45,114 bases of DNA from Myxococcales bacterium (GTDB taxonomy: Bacteria; Myxococcota_A; Polyangia; Palsa-1104; SHYY01): the NCBI GenBank assembly GCA_009692555.1, contig SHYY01000023.1:1-45114 (forward strand). The letters are read 5' to 3'. Each line of letters opens with the position of its first letter. The stretch's first letter is position 1. A model generated the notes under the pieces. That model did no database searches. It was given only the letters and a program-made list of their open reading frames with translations, and was not told the origin of the DNA. The position numbers were made by a program, and so were the translations under genes. Of this stretch, positions 10,574-45,114 are shown one piece after another.

Positions 10574-10627
10574 TTAGGAGCCTGTTGGGGCAAGGCGCCT
10601 ACTGCGGCAGCCGATCCCTTCGGCCAT
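10574..10627 (-). CDS. 17-codon ORF inside repeat element copy 1
   Basis: MAEGIGCRSRRLAPTGS is preceded by AAGGAGG, a near-perfect ribosome site, 11 nt from the ATG. The same ORF with the same stop position is kept in copy 2 (18057-18110). The stop TAA uses two bases outside the element. Whether it is translated is unknown; the conservation may reflect the age of the repeat rather than selection. Confidence 0.3.
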   Translation of the reverse strand: MAEGIGCRSRRLAPTGS

Positions 10628-10736
10628 GCTTCGTCGCTCCTCCTTAGGGATTGCAGAAAGCAGTCCGGCGTCGTCGCTCCTCGCCTGGCCTTGGTCTCGG
10701 CCGCCTCGCTACGGCGCCTTACCCCAACAGGCTCCT
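10576..10736. mobile_element. MITE-like repeat element, copy 1
   Basis: A 161 bp element whose ends are 24 bp inverted repeats with one mismatch (AGGAGCCTGTTGGGG followed by C or T and AAGGCGCC). Copy 2 at 18059-18217 is about 85% identical and in the same orientation. It encodes no transposase. Its right end overlaps the alaC gene: the last codons and the TAA stop of alaC (RSLLG, stop at 10719-10721) are part of the terminal repeat. No clear target-site duplication is visible. Confidence 0.88.
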
Positions 10737-11897
10737 GGCGATCGCGCGGCAGGCGGCCTCGATCCGGGGCACCTCCTCGACCAGACCGAAGCGGAGGTAG
10801 CCCTCGCCGCCCGGGCCGAAGGCGACACCCGGAGCGACGGCGACCCGCGCCTCCTCGAGCAGCTTGACCGCGAACGCGACCGAGCCGAGGGAGCGAAAGC
10901 GCTCGGGCAGCGGCGCCCAGACGAACATCGTCCCGAGCGGGGGATCGACCGGCCAGCCGGCGGCGGCGAGACCCCGGCAGAGCACGCCGGCGCGCTCGCG
11001 GTAGAGGTCGCGGATCGAGGCGGCGAAGGCGTCGCCGTGGTCGAGCGCGAAGGCGGCGCCGCGCTGGATCGGGCCGAAGATCCCGTAGTCCATGTAGCCC
11101 TTGATCCGTTTGAGCGCGCCAACCAGCTCGGCGTTGCCGACGCAGAAGCCGACCCGCCAACCCGGCATGTTGAAGCTCTTCGAGGTGGTGAAGAACTCGA
11201 CCACGTGCGAGCGCGCGCCGTCGACGGAGAGCGCGCTCGGGGTGCGGCCACCGTCGAAGAGCAGGTCGGCGTAGGCGAGATCGGAGACCAGCCACAGGTC
11301 GCGGCGGCGGGCCCACTGGACGATCCCCTCCATCGCCCGCTCGTCGATCGTCGCCGAGGTGGGGTTGTGCGGGAAGTTGACGATCGCGAGCTTGGCCTTC
11401 CTTGGCGCGGCGTGCCACGCGTCGTCGAGATCCTTCAGCGCGTCGCGCCCCGGTCCCGTCGGTACGGGCTGCCAGTGGCCGCCGGCGAAGAGGACGCCGA
11501 AGCGGTGGATCGGGTAGCAGGGATCGGGCGCGAGGACGACGTCGCCGGCGCCGATCACCGCGAGCAGGAGGTGGCCGAGGCCCTCCTTCGAGCCGATGGT
11601 CGCCACCGCCTCGGTCGCGGGATCGAGCTTCACGCCGTAGCGTCGATCGTACCAGCGAGTGATCGCGGAGCGCAGCTCGGGGAGCCCCGGCGACGGCTGG
11701 TAGCGGTGCAGGCTGGCGTCGAGGGCGCTCTGGCGGAGCACCTCGACCGCCTCGGGTGGCGAGGCGTGATCGGGGTTGCCGAGGCCGAAGTCGAAGACGT
11801 CCTCGCCCTGGGCGCGCAGGGCGGTCTTGCGCTCGTCGACGGCACCGAGGACGTAGGGAGGCAGATCGGCGAGGCGCGGGAAGTGGGAGATCGGCAT
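10719..11897 (-). CDS. alaC: alanine transaminase AlaC-type aminotransferase
   Basis: A 392-residue class I/II PLP-dependent aminotransferase. It follows AlaC of E. coli closely through DLPPYVLGAVDE, GNPDHASPP, ATIGSKEGLGHLLLAV, PDPCYPIHRFG, FPHNPTSATID, DLAYADLLFDG and FFTTSKSFNMPGWRVGF; in the last, Lys near residue 237 forms the Schiff base with PLP and Arg of GWR binds the phosphate. Expected reaction: pyruvate plus glutamate to alanine plus 2-oxoglutarate, in the cytoplasm. The C-terminal four residues and stop lie in a repeat element. LL-diaminopimelate aminotransferase is a related alternative, but the GSKEGLGH and TTSKS context favours AlaC. Confidence 0.9.
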   Translation of the reverse strand: MPISHFPRLADLPPYVLGAVDERKTALRAQGEDVFDFGLGNPDHASPPEAVEVLRQSALDASLHRYQPSPGLPELRSAITRWYDRRYGVKLDPATEAVATIGSKEGLGHLLLAVIGAGDVVLAPDPCYPIHRFGVLFAGGHWQPVPTGPGRDALKDLDDAWHAAPRKAKLAIVNFPHNPTSATIDERAMEGIVQWARRRDLWLVSDLAYADLLFDGGRTPSALSVDGARSHVVEFFTTSKSFNMPGWRVGFCVGNAELVGALKRIKGYMDYGIFGPIQRGAAFALDHGDAFAASIRDLYRERAGVLCRGLAAAGWPVDPPLGTMFVWAPLPERFRSLGSVAFAVKLLEEARVAVAPGVAFGPGGEGYLRFGLVEEVPRIEAACRAIARSLLG

Positions 11898-13789: not shown

Positions 13790-15937
13790 TCACCGCACCC
13801 AGAACGCTCCCGAGCCCTGGTTGTTCCCGCCCGCGTCGGCCACCGTCGAGTAGACGCCGCGGATGGTCGCGTCGCACTTCCAGGTGACCACGCAGTCGGC
13901 GCAGTAGTCGCCGTGGTAGTCGGGGGCGCTCGCCACGAGGCCGATCCACAGGCGCGGCCCGGTCCAGCAGCCGGCCCATCCCTGGTAGTTCAGGAACTTG
14001 GCTCGCGGCGAGACCATCCCGTTTGCGAGGTTCTTGCACTCCACCGCGGCGGCCGGCTGGTTCTGCAGGCCCGGCGTGGCGAACTTGCTGCGCGCGTCGG
14101 CGGTCAGGCCGCACTTGAAGTCCTGCGGCCACGCCGAGACGGCGGAGTCGGTGATCGCCATCGCGGGCTCGGAATAGCGGATGTCGGCCGCGTTGGCGAA
14201 CAGCGCGCGCGCGGCGATCTTGTAGGAGCCCGCGCTCAGCGTGCCGAGGACGGTGTCGGAGGCGACCGCGGCGTAGGCGTTCTTGTAGCCCTCGGCATCG
14301 GTGGTCAGGTACTCCACCTGGGTCCAGCCGCCACCGTCGGTGGTCATGTCGCAGTAGACGTCGCGCTGGGGCAGCGTGGTGTCCGGCTTGATCGCGTAGA
14401 TCCCGCTCCCGGTGGCGCCGGCGTAGCTGCGCGCGCCTGGCGGCGGCTTCAGGTAGTCGAGGCAGGAGCGCGCGATCGTGCCGTCGGACCAGTTGCGCGA
14501 CTTGCCGACCGCGACGATCGTCACCGGGACGGCGACCGCCTCGCGCACGAACACGCGGTGGGCGTAGACCTGCACGCCCCAGTTGGCCACCGGCATCATC
14601 CCCCACATCGTCGAGAGCGTGGAGAGCGCGGGGTCGCGCATCAGCATCTGCGCGTCCCAGGGCCCGAAGTCGCAGGCGGTGTTGGCCATGTCGCTCGGCG
14701 CCACCGACGTGCGACCGAGGAAGGAGAGGCCCGCCGCGCCCTGGAGCGAGCGCGCGAAGGGGGAGACCATCGGGGTCCAGCAGATGCGGAGCGGGCGCTG
14801 GCCGGCGCCCCCGTCGGAGTCGAGGAGGAGCGTCGGGAGGTAGTCGGACTGGTAGAGCATCGCCGAGCTGAAGTAGCCCTTGGTCTGCATGTTCAGCGGG
14901 TAGATCGCGCTGGCGCTCTTCTGGGCCATGGTGTCGGTGACCCGCACCATGAAGTGGCCACCGTCGACGAGACCGGCGAGGCTCCCGCCGAGGAGGTAGG
15001 ACTTGTCGGGGGCGATCGAGCCGAGGTCGCTCTTCAGCCAGTCGATGTTGTAGAGCGACTTTCCGCCGACGATGCAGGTGTCGCCGGGGAGGCACTGGAG
15101 GAGCTGGGTCCAGCCGCCGCCGTCGGTGGTCATGTCGCAGGTGACGGTCTGGGAGGTGTTCTGGCCGGGCGGTCGGATGGTGTAGTCGCCCGACTTGGTG
15201 GCGGGGACGCGCTTCTGGAGATCGGCGCACGAGGACGGGCTGGCGCAGGCGGCGGCGATGCAGAAGTCGGGCTTGCAATCCGCGTCCGCCTTGCACGCCT
15301 TGCCGAGCGCGCAGGGAGGGCACGAGCCGCCGCAGTCGAGGTCGCTCTCGTCGCCGTTCTTCACCTTGTCGTTGCACGCCGGGGCGGCGCACACGTTCTG
15401 GGTGCACACGCCGGTGAAGCAGTCGGCGGGCTTCTGGCAGCCCTTCATCACCGCGCACACCGGGCAGCCGCCGCCGCCGCAGTCGACGTCGGTCTCGGCG
15501 CCGTTCTTGATCAGGTCGTTGCACGTCGCCGCTGCGCACTGGAGGTTCGCGCACAGGGCGCTGGCGCAGTCGCCGTTCTTCGCGCACCCCTTGCCGGGGC
15601 CGCACGCCGGGCAGGCGCCGCCGCAGTCGACGTCGGTCTCGTCGCCGTTCTTCTTGGTGTCGACGCACGACGGAAGGGGGGTGAGGTCGGGCGGCGGAGT
15701 GAGGTCGGGAGGCCGCGCGAGGTCGGGCGGCGGGGTGAGGTCGGGCAGCGCGAGATCGGGCGCGGCCAGATCGGGTGCGGCCAGATCGAACGACGTCGCG
15801 AGGTCGCCTGCGGCCACCAGATCGGGCGGGCGCGGGGTGGCCTGGTCGACGGGGTGCGCTGCATCGTTCGACGTCGGCGGCGTGGGATCGCACGCCGAGA
15901 GGCAGAGCGCGAGGAATACGAGGTTTCGGGCTTTCAT
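13790..15937 (-). CDS. lipoprotein with Cys-rich DVDCGG modules and two fibrinogen-like domains
   Basis: A 715-residue surface lipoprotein. Signal and lipobox are FLALCLSAC (Cys16). A Pro-Asp-Leu linker (repeats of DLAAP, DLTPPP) spans about residues 20-95. Three Cys-rich modules follow, each of the form [17 protein letters not shown]..CPxC..G.xC...DC.s..C....C. Then come two fibrinogen-related domains, each with CxDYLK- or CADLQK-type starts and YCDMTTDGGGWTQ. The fold is adhesin-like and outer-membrane exposure is inferred. The start ATG at 15937 has AGGAGG 5 nt upstream. A longer upstream frame is not supported. The protein at 41969-44791 shares the same modules. No neighbour points to a ligand. 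Confidence 0.88.
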   Translation of the reverse strand: MKARNLVFLALCLSACDPTPPTSNDAAHPVDQATPRPPDLVAAGDLATSFDLAAPDLAAPDLALPDLTPPPDLARPPDLTPPPDLTPLPSCVDTKKNGDETDVDCGGACPACGPGKGCAKNGDCASALCANLQCAAATCNDLIKNGAETDVDCGGGGCPVCAVMKGCQKPADCFTGVCTQNVCAAPACNDKVKNGDESDLDCGGSCPPCALGKACKADADCKPDFCIAAACASPSSCADLQKRVPATKSGDYTIRPPGQNTSQTVTCDMTTDGGGWTQLLQCLPGDTCIVGGKSLYNIDWLKSDLGSIAPDKSYLLGGSLAGLVDGGHFMVRVTDTMAQKSASAIYPLNMQTKGYFSSAMLYQSDYLPTLLLDSDGGAGQRPLRICWTPMVSPFARSLQGAAGLSFLGRTSVAPSDMANTACDFGPWDAQMLMRDPALSTLSTMWGMMPVANWGVQVYAHRVFVREAVAVPVTIVAVGKSRNWSDGTIARSCLDYLKPPPGARSYAGATGSGIYAIKPDTTLPQRDVYCDMTTDGGGWTQVEYLTTDAEGYKNAYAAVASDTVLGTLSAGSYKIAARALFANAADIRYSEPAMAITDSAVSAWPQDFKCGLTADARSKFATPGLQNQPAAAVECKNLANGMVSPRAKFLNYQGWAGCWTGPRLWIGLVASAPDYHGDYCADCVVTWKCDATIRGVYSTVADAGGNNQGSGAFWVR

Positions 15938-16699: not shown

Positions 16700-18055
16700 C
16701 TACGTGAGGTAGCGCAGGAGCAGGGTCGCGATCCCGAGGAAGGCGCCGTAGCCGATGCAGTCGGTGAAGGTTGTGAGCATCACCGTGCCGCCGAGGGCCG
16801 GGTCGCGCTTGATGGCCCGCAGGAAGAGGGGGATCGCGGCGCCCGAGAAGCCGGCGATCGACAGGTTGATCACCATCGCCAGGAACAGCACCAGGCCGAT
16901 CATCGGCTGGCCGGTCCAGAGGGACGCCACGGCAGCGGTGACGAGGCCGGTGCAGGCGCCGATGCCGAGCGAGACCGCCAGCTCCTTCGCGATCGTGCGG
17001 AGCCCGGAGATGAGCTCCATCTCGCCGAGCGCGACGCCGCGGGTGACGACGGTGAGCGCCTGCATCCCGCAGTTCCCGCCCATGCCGGCGACAATCGGCA
17101 TGAAGGTCGCGAGCGCCACCACCTGCGCGATCGAGGCCGAGAAGAGCCCCACCACCCACGCGGCGAGGAAGGCGGTGAAGAGGTTCAGGACCATCCACGG
17201 CAGCCGCTTGCGGAACGAGGTGAGGATCGGGCTGAAGATACGGTCGTCCTCGGAGAGGCCGGCGAGCCCGTAGAGGGCCTGGGTGGCCTGCTCCTGGATC
17301 ACGTCGATGATGTCGTCGACGGTGATGATGCCGAGGAGGCGACGATCCTCGTCGACCACCGGCACCGCGAGCAGGTTGTAGCGCGCCACCAGTCGCGCCG
17401 CCTCCTCGGCGGTGGAGGAGGCCAGCACCGCCAGCGGATCGGCCATCGCCAGCTCGCCGACGGGGCGATCCGGGCGCGCCGCGACCAGCCGCCGCACCGC
17501 CACCACGCCGCCCAGGCGCCCGTCGGTGTCGACCACGTAGAGGTAGTAGATCGAGTCGGCCTCCTCGGCGTCGCGCGCCCGCAGGCGATCGATCGCCTCC
17601 TGCGCGGTGGCCGACGCCGGGAGGGCGAAGACGCGCGTGTTCATCACGCTCCCGGCGGTGCCAGCCGGGTAGCGGAGGATGCGCTCGATGTCGCCGCGCG
17701 CCCGCGGGTCGAGCGCGCCCAGGAGGCGCTCGCGGCGCTCCTCGGGGAGCCGCTCGACGAACCACGCCGCGTCGTCGGTGGCGAGCTTCGCGACCAGCCC
17801 GGTCAGCCGCTCGTCGTCGACCAGGGCGAGCACCTCACCGAGGCGCTCCTCCGGCAGCTCCTTCATCACCGATCCGGCGCGCCCCGCGGCGAACAGGAGG
17901 TCGAGCATCGGGCGTCGTTCGGCCGGCGCCACCCGATCGAGCACATCCGCCGCGTCGGCGGAGCGCAGCTTGCCGAGCACCTTCTCGGCGCGCTGCTTCG
18001 CTCCCGAACGCAGCAGCCGACGGAGGATGTCGGCGTAGACCTGCGCGCGGGGCAT
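16700..18055 (-). CDS. mgtE: magnesium transporter MgtE
   Basis: A 451-residue Mg2+ channel. An N-terminal helical superhelix (residues about 1-125) carries MgtE_N features such as ELPEERLGEVLALVDDERL; a CBS pair follows (GTAGSVMNTRVFALP, ITVDDIIDVI) and then five membrane segments from about residue 275, including the signature VAGMGGNCGMQALTVVTRG in the pore region. Mg2+ uptake in the cell membrane is gated by Mg2+ binding to the N and CBS domains. The start codon is 1 nt after the stop of a 17-codon ORF in the repeat at 18059-18217, so its translation may depend on that element. No separate ribosome site lies in the remaining 3 nt. Confidence 0.95.
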   Translation of the reverse strand: MPRAQVYADILRRLLRSGAKQRAEKVLGKLRSADAADVLDRVAPAERRPMLDLLFAAGRAGSVMKELPEERLGEVLALVDDERLTGLVAKLATDDAAWFVERLPEERRERLLGALDPRARGDIERILRYPAGTAGSVMNTRVFALPASATAQEAIDRLRARDAEEADSIYYLYVVDTDGRLGGVVAVRRLVAARPDRPVGELAMADPLAVLASSTAEEAARLVARYNLLAVPVVDEDRRLLGIITVDDIIDVIQEQATQALYGLAGLSEDDRIFSPILTSFRKRLPWMVLNLFTAFLAAWVVGLFSASIAQVVALATFMPIVAGMGGNCGMQALTVVTRGVALGEMELISGLRTIAKELAVSLGIGACTGLVTAAVASLWTGQPMIGLVLFLAMVINLSIAGFSGAAIPLFLRAIKRDPALGGTVMLTTFTDCIGYGAFLGIATLLLRYLT

Positions 18056-18056
18056 T

Positions 18057-18110
18057 TCAGGAGCCTGCTGGGGTGGTGGGCCTACTGCGGCAGCCGATCC
18101 CTTCAGCCAT
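18057..18110 (-). CDS. 17-codon ORF inside repeat element copy 2, just before mgtE
   Basis: MAEGIGCRSRPTTPAGS starts after GGAGGAG (spacing about 9 nt) and stops with TGA, one base before the mgtE start codon (TGAAATG). This arrangement suits translational coupling of mgtE to the small ORF. The ORF is shared with copy 1 (10574-10627), with the first ten residues identical. Expression is not known. Confidence 0.35.
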   Translation of the reverse strand: MAEGIGCRSRPTTPAGS

Positions 18111-18217
18111 GCTTCGTCACTCCTCCGCGAATTGCAGACAGCAGTCCGTCGTCGTCGTTTCTCGCCTGGCCTCGGTCTCGGCTGCCTCGCTACGGCGCCT
18201 CACCCCAACAGGCTCCT
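18059..18217. mobile_element. MITE-like repeat element, copy 2
   Basis: A 159 bp element related to 10576-10736 (about 85% identity), with terminal inverted repeats beginning AGGAGCCTG. It fills the gap between the membrane protein gene (stop 18221) and mgtE (start 18055) almost exactly: 3 nt remain on the left and 3 nt on the right. Both genes read in the same direction across it, so it probably forms part of a shared transcript. Confidence 0.88.
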
Positions 18218-18220
18218 GGC

Positions 18221-19303
18221 CTACTTCACCATCTTCTTGGGTTCGGCCTTGAAGCTCTTGACGATCGCCGCGAGGATCCAGCCGCCGATACCGCCGATCG
18301 ACGCCGACGCCGCCAGGTAGGCCACCGCGGGCCCCACGAGATGGTTCGGGGTCGCCTCCTTCGGGAACAGCCACGCGAACACCAGGGTGATCCCGGCGCA
18401 CACCGTGAAGTGCGTCTTCACCTTCGGCGCGGCGAGGCGGTAGTCGAGGAACAGACCGATCAGCAGACAGAGCGCCGCGAGACCGAGGAAGATCCGCGGA
18501 TCGGGCCCGGCCGATCGGAAGGTCAAGAAGAGCCCCTCCTCGAGCGCGTCGTCGATTCCGTCGGCGGTCACCTTCACCGGCGTTCCCTGGATCGTGAGGC
18601 GGTGCCAGGCGTCGGTGTGCTCCTGCTTCTGGATGCTCGTCCCGCTGCCGCGGCGGCTGGTCCGCTGGGGGACCAGCTTGCGCTCGAGGGTGCCCTCGAT
18701 GTCCTCCTTGCTGCCCGCCGCACCCTCGATCTCGAGGTGGTAGTTCGACGACGCGTCGCCCTGCCCGCGCAGCCCGCCTGCGACCTCGATCTCGTAGGGA
18801 TCACTGTTCTCGGGCAGCGTGGCGGTCGCGACCAGCTTCGACTCGGCGCAGTCGCGCTTCTCGATCGGGTCCTTCCAGCTGGCGCAGTAGGCGATCCGGA
18901 CCGGATCGGCGAGCGCCCTGGCCGGCAGGGCCCTCCGCACCGACGGGTAGCCCGCGCCGATCGCCCACACCGCGGCGAACAGGCCGAGCAGGAGCTTGCT
19001 CTGCCGCTTCTCGAGCATTTCGAACACCGGCATCGCGGCGGCTGCGATGGCGCCACCGATGATCCCGGCGACGCACAGCAGCCCGGCGGTGCCCTCGGGG
19101 ACCCACCCCTGGGTGTAGGACACGTAGGCGACGACGATCAGCACGAGGCCGGCGACCGATTTCATCCAGCCGTGCCAGGCCTCCTCGAGCGTGGTCCGGA
19201 AGGTGGTCGGGATCTCCGGCCGCTCCTTCGCCGTCCCCGCGTCGTCGGAGCCTTCGCTGGTGATCCGCTTGTCCTGCCTCGCCTGCTTCGGTCCCCGGGC
19301 CAT
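18221..19303 (-). CDS. hypothetical membrane protein
   Basis: A 360-residue protein not assigned to a family. After a charged N-terminal 45 residues come three membrane segments (about 48-64, 71-95 and 103-120: GLVLIVVAYVSY, LLCVAGIIGGAIAAAA and LLLGLFAAVWAIGAGY). A soluble domain (about 125-290) follows with two Cys, YCASWKDPIEKRDCAE, and HLEIEGAAGSKEDIEG. Three more segments (about 292-310, 318-335, 340-355) end it. The middle domain is probably outside the cell. It lies upstream of mgtE on the same strand, with only the 159 bp repeat between them, so joint transcription is likely. Confidence 0.75.
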   Translation of the reverse strand: MARGPKQARQDKRITSEGSDDAGTAKERPEIPTTFRTTLEEAWHGWMKSVAGLVLIVVAYVSYTQGWVPEGTAGLLCVAGIIGGAIAAAAMPVFEMLEKRQSKLLLGLFAAVWAIGAGYPSVRRALPARALADPVRIAYCASWKDPIEKRDCAESKLVATATLPENSDPYEIEVAGGLRGQGDASSNYHLEIEGAAGSKEDIEGTLERKLVPQRTSRRGSGTSIQKQEHTDAWHRLTIQGTPVKVTADGIDDALEEGLFLTFRSAGPDPRIFLGLAALCLLIGLFLDYRLAAPKVKTHFTVCAGITLVFAWLFPKEATPNHLVGPAVAYLAASASIGGIGGWILAAIVKSFKAEPKKMVK

Positions 19304-41140: not shown

Positions 41141-41985
41141 GCAGCCCGCAGCAAGCCGTCCTCTTCGATCTCGATGGCACGCTGGTCGACACCCTCGACG
41201 ACCTCACCGACGCTGCCAATCACGTCCTTCGCACCCTCTCCCAACGATCCTCTCGGCCTTCGGCCTCCCCATCCTTCGGTGGGGCCCCAGCATCTCGGCC
41301 TTCGGCCTCCCCATCCTTCGGTGGGGCCCCAGCATCTCGGCCTTCGGCCTCCCCATCCTTCGGTGGGGCCCCCGCACGCACCCGCGACGAGGTGCGATCG
41401 TTCATCGGCGACGGCGTACGCAACCTCGTCACGCGCGTCCTCGGGCCTCCCGGTCCTTCCGACCCGGCGCTGCTCGATCGCGCGGTCGCCGAATTCCGCC
41501 GCCACTACGGCGCCCACCTGTTCGACCGAACCGCGCCCTACCCCGGGATCGTCGCGCTCCTCGACGGGCTGGCCACCCGCAACATCCCCGTCGCCGTCCT
41601 GAGCAACAAGATGGACCAGGCCACCCGCGCGATCGTGGACCGCTTCTTCCCCGGCCGCTTCGCCGCGGTCGTCGGCGAGCGCGACGGCGTCCCGCGCAAG
41701 CCCGATCCCACCGCCGCGCTCGCGCTGGCCGCCCGCCTCGGCGTCCCCCCCGCGCGCTGCTTTCTCGTCGGGGATGGCGCGGCGGACATGGAGGCGGCGG
41801 TGCGCGCCGGGATGATGCCGATCGGGGTGACCTGGGGGTTCCGGGGGGCCGAGGAGCTCCGCGAGCACGGCGCCAGCGCGATCATCGATCGCCCGGACGA
41901 CGTGCTCGGGATCCTCGACGCGAGCGCTGTTGCGCTCCAAGCTTGCTGCACGTCGGCTATTGCCGACGCTACTTCATCTGATTGA
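41137..41985 (+). CDS. gph: HAD hydrolase, phosphoglycolate phosphatase-like
   Basis: A 282-residue HAD phosphatase. [13 protein letters not shown] is motif I with the nucleophile Asp and the acid/base Asp, AVLSNK is motif [11 protein letters not shown] motif III and [16 protein letters not shown] motif IV. The closest match is phosphoglycolate phosphatase (2-phosphoglycolate to glycolate). Residues 39-80 carry three in-frame copies of a 14-residue repeat ([14 protein letters not shown]) inside the cap domain. The start GTG overlaps the fdhA stop by four bases, so it is cotranscribed with the formate dehydrogenase. The C-terminal 15 residues ([17 protein letters not shown]) look like read-through of non-coding DNA. 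It overlaps the convergent lipoprotein gene by 17 bp. Confidence 0.85.
41251..41376. repeat. 42-bp minisatellite, three units, inside the HAD gene
   Basis: Three units of 42 bp, each with GGCCTTCGGCC and a CCCCA...TGGGG inverted repeat, are nearly identical (the last has CCCC-G instead of CCCA-G near its end). The unit is a multiple of three, so copy-number changes keep the frame. It encodes 14 residues per unit. Confidence 0.92.
41951..41968. terminator. hairpin at convergent gene ends
   Basis: CGTCGGC and GCCGACG form a 7 bp stem with a TATT loop between the end of the HAD gene and the end of the lipoprotein gene. The last base pairs with the base next to the lipoprotein stop (41969-41971). 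It may end transcription in both directions; there is no U tract. Confidence 0.4.
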
Positions 41986-44791
41986 GCAGCACGCCGACGC
42001 TGTTGGTGGAATTGTTGACCACCACCACGTCGGGCTTGTTGTCGCCGTTCAGATCCCCCGTCGCGACGTGGTAGGGGATCTGCGCCACCGGGTAGCTCGC
42101 GAGCTGGTACTGATCACTGCCGAGGTTGAGCAGGAAGCTCACCGTGGCGGCGTTGTAGTTCGGGACCACGATGTCGAGCTTCCCGTCGCTGTTGAAGTCC
42201 GCGGCGGCGATCGAGTAGGGGTTCGCGCCGACCGGGATCGACTTGGCCGCCAGCAGCGCCCCATTGCCCGAGTTGATGAACAGGCTGACCGTGCTGGCCA
42301 CGTAATTGGCGACCGCGACATCCGCCTTCATGTCCCCGTTGAAGTCGCCCACCACCACCCCGATCGGATTCGCGCCCGTCGCTTTGTTGGCCGGCGCCGC
42401 GAAGGTCCCCATCGCCGTCCCGAGGAGCACGCTGACCGTGTTCGCCGAGTAGTTGGCGCTGACGATATCGAGCTTGCCATCGCCGTTGAGATCGCCCACG
42501 GCGACTGCCAGCGCGCGGGAACCGGCGGCGAAGTTGGCGACCGGCTGGAAGCTGGCCGCGCCCTTGCCGGCGAGGAAGCTGACCGACCCGCCCGCGAGGT
42601 ACGTGCCGACCACGACATCCGGCTTGGCATCGGCGTTCCAGTCGGCGATCACCAGCGACCACGGCGTCGATCCGCACGGGAAGAACGCCTGCGCCGCGAA
42701 GGCCGCGTTGCCCTTGTTGAGGAGCAGGCTGATGTTGGCGCCGCCGTAGTTCGCGGTGACGATATCGGGCTGCTTGTCGCCGTCGAAATCACCGATCGCC
42801 ACCGCCTTCGCCTGGGTGCCGGCCGGGTAGCTGATCGCCGCGTTGAACGTCCCCAGGCTCTTGTTGGTCAGGACGCTGACGTTGTTGCTCGAGTGGTTCG
42901 CCGTCACGAGGTCCGGCTTCATGTCGGCGTTCAGATCGCCGATCGCCACCCAGCGCGGCGACGTGCCCACCGGGTAGGTCACCATGTTCGCGAAGATGAA
43001 GGCGCACTTGTTCTCGCCGCACAGCCCGGTCGCACAGTCGTTGTTGAGCACGCAGGTCTTGTCGGTGCCGATGCAGCGCGCGCAGCTCGCGCCGCCGCAG
43101 TCGATGTCGCTCTCGGTCCCGTTCTTCACCTTGTCGGCGCAGCCCGGCACCGCGCACTTGAGGGCCGTGCACACCAGGCTCTGGCAGTCCTTCGGCAAGG
43201 CGCAGCCCTTGTTGTTGGCGCACGGCCCGCAGTTCGCGCCGCCGCAGTCGATATCGGTCTCGAGGTTGTTCTTCACCCCGTCCATGCACGTCGCCTGGGT
43301 GCACTTCGCGCCGCCGCAGAGGATGCTCTGGCAGTCCTTCGCCACGATGCAGGTCTTCCCGGCGGGGCACGGCTGGCAGGTCGCGCCGCCGCAGTCGACG
43401 TCGGTCTCGGTGCCGTTCTTGATCTGATCGCCGCAGCCCGCCGGCATGCACTTGCCGGCCTGGCAGAGCCCGCTGGTGCAATCGCCGGACATGTTGCAGC
43501 CCTTGGCATTGGCGCACTTCGGGCAGTTCCCGCCGCAGTCGATATCGCTCTCCATGCCGTTCTTGACGAGGTCGATGCACGACGCGGTGGTGCACACCAG
43601 GGCCTTGCAGAGGCCGCTCTGGCAGTCCACCGCCGCCACGCACTTCTTCCCCGGCCCGCAGGCGGCGCACGATCCGCCGCAGTCGACGTCGGTCTCGGTG
43701 CCGTTCTTCAGCACGTCCATGCAGCTCGGCCCAGCGCACAGTCCGGCGAGGCAGATCCCGGTCAGGCAGTCACCGGCGCCCTTGCACGCCTGGGCGATGC
43801 TGCACTTGCCGCACATCGCACCGCCGCAATCGACATCGGTCTCGGCGCCGTTCTTCACCGCGTCAACGCACGTCGGGGCCACGCACTTGTTGGCGACGCA
43901 GACGCCGCTCGCGCAATCCGGGCCGAGGTCGCACACCTTGCCGGCGGCGCACGGCAGGCAGTCCATGCCGCCGCAATCGACGTCGGTCTCGCTGCCGTTC
44001 TTCAGCACGTCCATGCAGTTCGGGATCGCGCAGACGGCGTTGGTGCAGATCGCGCTCTGGCAATCGGCCGGCTTCCCGCAGGCCTTGCCGCCCGCGCAGG
44101 GCGGACAGCTCCCGCCGCAGTCGACATCCGTCTCGGCGCCGTTCTTCATGGCGTCAGCGCAGCCCGGCGCCGCGCACTGGCCGCCCTGGCAGGAGACGCT
44201 CACGCAGTCCTTGGCGATCGCGCAGTTCTTCCCGTTGGCGCACGCCGGGCAGTTGCCGCCGCAGTCGACATCCGTCTCGGTGCCGTTCTTCACCTGGTCC
44301 ACGCAGCCCGGCCCGGCGCAGAGCGCGTTCATGCATACGCCGTCCTGGCAATCGGCCGGCTTCCCGCACCCCTTCCCCACCGGGCACGGCGCGCACGACC
44401 CGCCGCAGTCGATGTCGCTCTCGCTCCCATTCTTCTTGCCGTCGCCGCACGAGGGCGCCAGGTCGGGCGGCTCGACGAGATCGGGTCCCTCGATGAGATC
44501 GGCCACGTCGGCGAGATCGGGCACGTCCGCGAGATCGGCCGAGCCCGCCGAATCCACGACCGAGAGATCGGCCCCGGCGAGGTCCTCCGAGGTCGCGGCA
44601 TCGTCCGCCGCCTTGCCGTCGAGCCCGGCGAGATCGGGCGGGGCCAACGCGCCATCGCCGGGCTTGGCCCCGTCGCTCTTCGCGATCGTCAGATCCTCCG
44701 TCCCGCCGGGCGGCGAATCACCGCCCCCACAACCCGCGAACGACACCACCAGCAACGAGGAGAGGAGAGAGGTCGCAAGCCTGCCACGCAT
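41969..44791 (-). CDS. lipoprotein with ten Cys-rich DVDCGG modules and a seven-repeat FG-GAP propeller
   Basis: A 940-residue lipoprotein. LLVVSFAGC (Cys near 20) is the lipobox; a long acidic linker with DLxxP-type repeats (about 35-110) follows. Ten Cys-rich modules of the form [17 protein letters not shown]..C..C....C....DC.s..C....C follow (about 110-585). The last 340 residues are seven FG-GAP/VCBS blades ([45 protein letters not shown] and others) with Asp-rich calcium loops, so the fold is a complete seven-bladed propeller. ATG at 44791 has GGAGG 7 nt upstream. The protein shares module type with 13790-15937. It is probably surface-exposed and may bind a ligand or a partner cell. Confidence 0.9.
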
Positions 44792-44881: not shown

Positions 44882-45114
44882 TGGGGTGCTTAACGGAGAA
44901 GGGGGTCCCTCCGCTCACGTAGTCGTAGTCGTAGTCGATTCAGGGGCACTCTCGCGCGGGGGATGACCTCTCCGGCACAAGCGCGTGAGCATCTCCAGGA
45001 TGCGGGTCAGCAACTCCATGGCCTGTCGCCGAGTGTCTTCCAAGGCGAGTTGCAGGACCGCAAAGGCATCCACGATCGCCTTGCACTCCATCGCGGAGCC
45101 CCGGGCGATGCTGT
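44882..45114. repeat. right copy of the long inverted repeat (matches 33-277)
   Basis: The reverse complement of 33-277, with fewer hexamers and a few base changes. The repeat continues beyond the window, so its full length is unknown. Confidence 0.9.
44915..45114 (-). CDS. four-helix bundle protein (S23/IVS family), 3' end
   Basis: A C-terminal fragment of 65 residues, in the frame that reads SIARGSAMECKAIVDAF, then LQLALEDTRRQAMELLTRILEML and ends ES plus six Thr. It matches the left-edge copy closely; substitutions include MCRRADPP versus LCRRGHPP and the shorter Thr tail (three gactac hexamers). The gene continues out of the window. Its orientation is opposite to that of the other copy, so both genes run inward to the centre of the window. 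Confidence 0.8.
   Translation of the reverse strand, partial: SIARGSAMECKAIVDAFAVLQLALEDTRRQAMELLTRILEMLTRLCRRGHPPRESAPESTTTTTT

Follow-up and report, generated by a model that had tools for sequence, protein, structure and literature searches.

The window analysed here, a stretch of 45,114 nucleotides from a Myxococcales bacterium, contains two similar repeats of about 160 bp, one of which reaches into the end of a gene. The question is what these repeats are, how they came to lie where they do, and whether they encode anything. The original prediction described a MITE-like element that may carry a translated peptide of 17 codons. According to our analysis the repeat is a non-autonomous MITE, most likely moved in trans by transposases of the IS630/Tc1-mariner family, pasted into the TA of YTAR, rebuilding the stop codons it lands in and built around a structured core; we give this reading a probability of about 0.8.

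Both copies are present, copy 1 at 10576-10736 (minus strand, i.e. the folded, G.A-paired strand) and copy 2 at 18059-18217 (minus strand). The terminal inverted repeat arms of copy 1, at 10576-10599 (plus strand, AGGAGCCTGTTGGGGCAAGGCGCC) and 10713-10736 (minus strand), are 24 bp long and 96% complementary. The two copies had been said to share 24-bp ends, which is right for copy 1, whereas the arms of copy 2 match less well and its left arm has drifted in its inner part. The TA remnants of copy 1 are intact at T10575-A10576 and decayed to TG at 10736-10737, and those of copy 2 are both decayed (CA, TG). Copy 2 is located between the stop of the gene at 18221-19303 (minus strand) and the start of the gene at 16700-18055 (minus strand). 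A covariance model of the core, R1, matches copy 1 at 10598-10711 (minus strand) with 128 bits and copy 2 at 18081-18192 (minus strand) with 123 bits. Neither inside nor beside either copy is there a transposase, as had been noticed before. The recurrence of the element ends in the window is well above chance: AGGAGCCTGTTGGGG, allowing up to three mismatches, occurs six times against 1.3 expected, and four of the six matches, with 0-1 mismatches, are ends of the element.

In the 283 contigs of the assembly about 28 paired copies of 159-276 bp were found, with ends of the form GGAGCCTGTTGGGG. The second genome of the same genus (G001) contains 23 delimited copies, and a genome from another genus of the family (G002) at least 29. 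The unpaired ends that were read resemble truncated remnants. The proposed MITE-like character is borne out, as the element has terminal inverted repeats, TA/YTAR at both ends, many dispersed copies, relatives whose ends resemble those of IS630-family insertion sequences, and neither a coding gene nor coding capacity.

Throughout, the element is read on the strand on which the core carries GGAGGAGCGACGAAGC, and in this orientation it has the form TA-G...C-TA. In three genomes, 48 of 80 copies have a TA at each end: 13 of 28 from the window's own genome, 12 of 23 from G001 and 23 of 29 from G002. Among the readable copies outside stop codons, the base before the TA is a pyrimidine in 41 of 46 and the base after the TA is a purine in 42 of 44. 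As these outer bases are seen also away from stop codons, the target is YTAR, best CTAG. Insertion at a TA with duplication of the TA is supported by flank statistics, by the reconstruction of stop codons and by one reconstructed gene end. The synteny search in G001 gave no usable flank pair, and no orthologous pair of an occupied and an empty site was recovered from a close strain. Tenzen and Ohtsubo reportedly found in 1991 that IS630 transposes preferentially to the TA in 5'-CTAG-3'. Duplication of a TA target is also a behaviour of the IS630 family (PMC2170065), and the element agrees with the family in both respects. One copy in G002 (L190) has a further end type that starts with TA-CCGCC and would fail to restore a stop codon.

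To locate gene ends we used our own crude codon model, trained on these genomes and seeded on GC by codon position. Seventy-five gene ends run into the element, and 34 of them have a TAG ending at element base 2; of the other two frames, one has two stops, at base 18, and the other has none, and the remaining genes almost all terminate ahead of the element. At occupied stop codons the TAG is rebuilt by the first base of the element, a G. Several proteins encoded next to the element have native C-termini: the PII protein (GlnB), which aligns with PDB 2eg1 over 112 of 112 residues, ribosomal protein S9, which is preserved through its final SKR, and SucB, to its last residues. On the far side, the TA is in most cases followed by A or G, as predicted for a former TAA or TAG stop. 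In distant genomes, 10 of 16 junctions lie in stop codons, and in all ten the far side completes a TAA or TAG.

We infer transposition of the cut-and-paste type by an IS630 transposase. Excision would take place at the terminal inverted repeats, and the element would be inserted into the TA of a YTAR site, preferably CTAG, with the TA duplicated. When the target TA belongs to a TAG or TAA stop, the insertion would rebuild a TAG at the end of the gene, and when it lies in CTAG, two CTAG sites would be recreated; both outcomes follow from the element starting with G and ending with C. In these GC-rich genomes YTAR is rare within genes and common at stop codons, and copies can thus accumulate at gene ends harmlessly. 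In a census of YTAR sites approximately 18% lie in stop codons, or 28% when intragenic sites are left out, to be compared with roughly 40% of the copies (all percentages are approximate, given the crude gene model). The placement follows in large part from the availability of YTAR, though not clearly in full. The stop-restoring ends give a simple and testable account of the harmless build-up at gene ends, including those of ribosomal protein and central metabolism genes.

The two exceptions with a stop at base 18 include the gene at copy 1. It encodes an alaC-like aminotransferase (10719-11897, minus strand) with its 3' end within the element, and the earlier statement that the element makes the end of alaC is correct: the last five codons (R S L L G) and the stop are read from the terminal repeat at 10713-10736. 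When the element and one TA are removed on paper, the protein, which now ends in ...AIARSLLG, ends in ...AIAKVLAS before the stop, and this was probably its native end. The alaC orthologue in another genome (G010, 66% identity) ends in ...AIARTLAAG, close to the reconstructed end.

What is preserved in the interior of the element is a fold. Copy 1 is predicted to form one hairpin over its whole length, with a free energy of -108.6 kcal/mol and an MFE z-score of -10.9, and a G002 copy with quite different ends has an MFE z-score of -11.4. The core of copy 1 is a covarying Watson-Crick stem with a run of tandem G.A pairs. Of 38 predicted pairs, 21 show double-sided changes in a sequence-based MAFFT alignment that comprises 43 copies. 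In 51 core matches from across the class the number is 27 of 30 pairs, and the covariation score is 0.617 against 0.05-0.10 in slid controls; the latter alignment was fitted to the model, and the MAFFT result is therefore the independent one. The tandem G.A run has the invariant AGGAGCGACGACG and AGGAGGAGCGACGAAGC as its strands and lies between single C-G pairs, which switch to G-C in some genomes. The two G.A tandems are kept in 42 and 32 of the 51 matches, and two Watson-Crick or G.U pairs take their place in four cases each. As the G.A pairs are possible on one strand only, it is one single strand that is conserved, and a hairpin of about 110 nt with covarying and tandem G.A pairs means that the interior is kept for the shape of that strand, as RNA or as single-stranded DNA. 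No curated Rfam family matches at the gathering score, and hairpin matches are found only far below the threshold.

What the conserved interior does can be explained in several ways. The original prediction was of a translated peptide under selection, and a frame of 17 codons is indeed found on the minus strand of both copies, MAEGIGCRSRRLAPTGS in copy 1 (10577-10627) and MAEGIGCRSRPTTPAGS in copy 2, each followed by a stop and preceded by GGAGGAG. Most copies in the window's own genome have the ATG, the GGAGGAG and the open frame, and there is a slight excess of synonymous changes in the frame, 18 against 12.4 expected. However, the frame is not conserved as a coding sequence. Of the copies from the window's genome 21 of 25 have the ATG, against 13 of 23 from G001 and none of 29 from the sister genus (G002). 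The ORF is thus not kept in other copies, an outcome that the original prediction had named as its refutation, and start, frame and ribosome site are not conserved across them. The stop is formed by the TA target and the following purine and is therefore external to the element. The copies have a common ancestry, and the pattern of change by codon position is unexceptional, since, when all 51-nt windows and frames of the element are compared, 17% and 31% of them in the two genomes have as large a synonymous excess. The GGAGGAG, described before as a strong ribosome site, is one strand of the tandem G.A stem, which accounts for it, and in about half of the copies in the window's genome a 39-bp insert separates it from the ATG. 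We consider a selected peptide very improbable, and elements of this kind can yield false small genes with convincing ribosome sites. The fold could instead be useful to the host, as an RNA which stabilises the 3' end of mRNAs or acts as a terminator at gene ends, with mobility being secondary. A strong hairpin placed immediately after stop codons, G.A pairs confined to one strand and a surplus of convergent gene pairs over divergent ones (22 vs 9) would all fit this, but between co-directional genes 19 copies are in sense and 19 in antisense orientation, an even split that argues against a role in the mRNA of the neighbours, and the placement is largely attributable to the availability of YTAR. 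A host RNA therefore appears unlikely, and in the transposition reading that we prefer the folded core would act in the spread of the element itself, not in translation.

To see how widely the core is distributed, a covariance model of 112 positions was searched with a cut-off of E <= 0.001; at most 13 candidates were scored per genome, and the copy counts are therefore lower bounds. The core model matches 69 of 290 genomes of the class, often in many copies, and eight genomes outside the class. We read 48 core-bearing elements, and their terminal repeats are wholly different between groups and complementary within each element. A TA is found at both delimited ends in 22 of the 48, a few boundaries being doubtful, and most of the others have degraded or asymmetric ends. 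The best explanation is a superfamily of IS630-type MITEs in which the folded core is conserved and the ends are exchangeable. This is the reverse of an ordinary MITE, and recognition beyond the terminal repeats may be involved. In bacterial MITEs it is usually the conserved ends that allow recognition, around disposable interiors, whereas here the interior has a structure that is conserved in many families of the phylum and the ends turn over completely.

The link to IS630 comes from the ends of relatives in other genomes. IS630-family (DDE_3) elements with TA-flanked ends occur in core-bearing genomes. The end of one of them, in G252 (GTACCTCGACACAGGGGAGATGACCG), matches the start of a core-bearing copy in G218 (GTACCTCGCCACAGGGGAGATGACCG) in 25 of 26 positions, and the core-bearing copies in G140 start with close variants of the same end. 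An IS630 element present in four copies in G193 has ends GTGTCTCGACCGTGACGTAACG, which match those of the G145 copies in 17 of 22 positions (GTGTCYCGACCG.. against GTGCCCCGACCG..). At two loci (L121, L300) a core-bearing element adjoins an IS630 end through one shared TA, as expected if every insertion recreates its target. The core was not found internal to any autonomous IS630 element, the copy at L300 being adjacent to one. In both genomes of the window's genus, which are fragmented MAGs, we found no DDE_3 (IS630) transposase and no longer or autonomous element with the window's own ends. At four loci (L009, L011, L124, L127) copies adjoin, through a TA, a second end-like sequence, GTGTCCCGACAC(A/C)GA, probably that of another IS630-type element of the window's genome.

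The conservation of the core, even though the terminal repeats differ completely yet stay complementary to each other, suggests another possibility, that it is the core that moves or is recognised, for instance as a folded single strand acted on by a putative enzyme, and that the variable repeats only close the stem. On the other hand the fixed TA-G ends, the YTAR target and the near-identity of some ends to IS630 all point to recognition of the ends, and the same ends also surround a different core, A'; we regard mobility of the core alone as improbable. Even less probable is that the element is a REP/REPIN-type palindrome moved by a RAYT tyrosine transposase. It is palindromic, dispersed and adjoins gene ends, but it is 160-280 bp long, with a TA target and long terminal repeats, and its ends read TAG...CTA and do not carry the GTAG or CGTC tag, which by definition stands unpaired at one end of a palindrome of 20-40 bp (PMC3733652). 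The GTAG/CGTC REPs, including the Rickettsia RPEs, resemble the element as dispersed palindromes near gene ends, some of them in frame; they are much smaller, have tagged ends and lack a TA target (PMC3733652). A MITE moved by IS630-type transposases is still the reading that we favour. More tentatively, and with odds somewhat below even, a single core, folded into a tandem G.A hairpin and active as RNA or as single-stranded DNA, may have persisted across the phylum by riding many IS630 families in turn, with its shape kept and its ends exchanged to match the active transposase and tuned to regenerate stop codons and CTAG.

Known TA-flanked bacterial MITEs are Correia/NEMIS in Neisseria, ERIC in enterobacteria and RUP in pneumococcus, the last tied through its ends to an IS630 element, IS630-Spn1 (PMC2229807). 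Like these, the element is non-autonomous with terminal inverted repeats and a TA duplication, in the class of about 100-200 bp, and it forms a long hairpin, as their transcripts are predicted to form long stem-loops (PMC2229807). Unlike them, it is GC-rich, it has a core conserved in many genera between terminal repeats that vary completely, its G...C ends rebuild stop codons and CTAG, and its stem contains tandem G.A pairs. Compared with the IS630 family and ISY100 of the Tc1-mariner group (PMC2170065), the ends of relatives match and the element has no transposase gene. Nothing relevant was found in the open literature on the repeat motif, on MITEs of this group or on insertion into stop codons, and we thus found no earlier description there, which does not by itself prove novelty.

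The copies in the window's genome vary in length by steps of about 39 bp, because the core contains, at defined positions and in various combinations, insertions of two smaller repeats, B (39 bp) and C (36-42 bp). Repeat B, TTGCTCTCCGAGCTTGCTGCACGTCGGCGATTGCCGACG, is found alone in the window at 41930-41968 (plus strand) and nested in many element copies elsewhere in the genome. It has more than 50 matches in the genome (among them the loci L053-L082), mostly after CG, and occurs solitary, in tandem and at two sites inside the element. At three sites in two loci it runs in frame through coding sequence, adding 13 codons. Three exact or near-exact tandem units of 42 bp related to repeat C lie at 41251-41376 (plus strand), and single related units are nested in the element in the window's genome and in G001 (L020, L134, L151). 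Cyanobacterial SDRs are very small mobile repeats inserted within other repeats, and repeats B and C, in a different host, resemble them in their nesting. In size, repeat B is nearer to the GTAG/CGTC REPs than the element is. The window's genome also contains the A' elements (L122-L126), with the same ends and a different interior, 180 or 222 bp in length, and two G001 loci (L133, L140) have a further core insert of roughly 55 bp, GTCGCGAGCACGGATGGGGCAGCGAGCGAAGCGAGC....

Two other features of the window were seen. The contig ends at 33-277 and 44882-45114 are long mutual inverted repeats (96%), possibly an assembly break at a larger repeat. The genes at 13790-15937 and 41969-44755 contain internal repeats of about 144/147 bp, each unit coding for 48-49 residues; they have many paralogous matches in G001 and possibly encode repeat-domain surface proteins.
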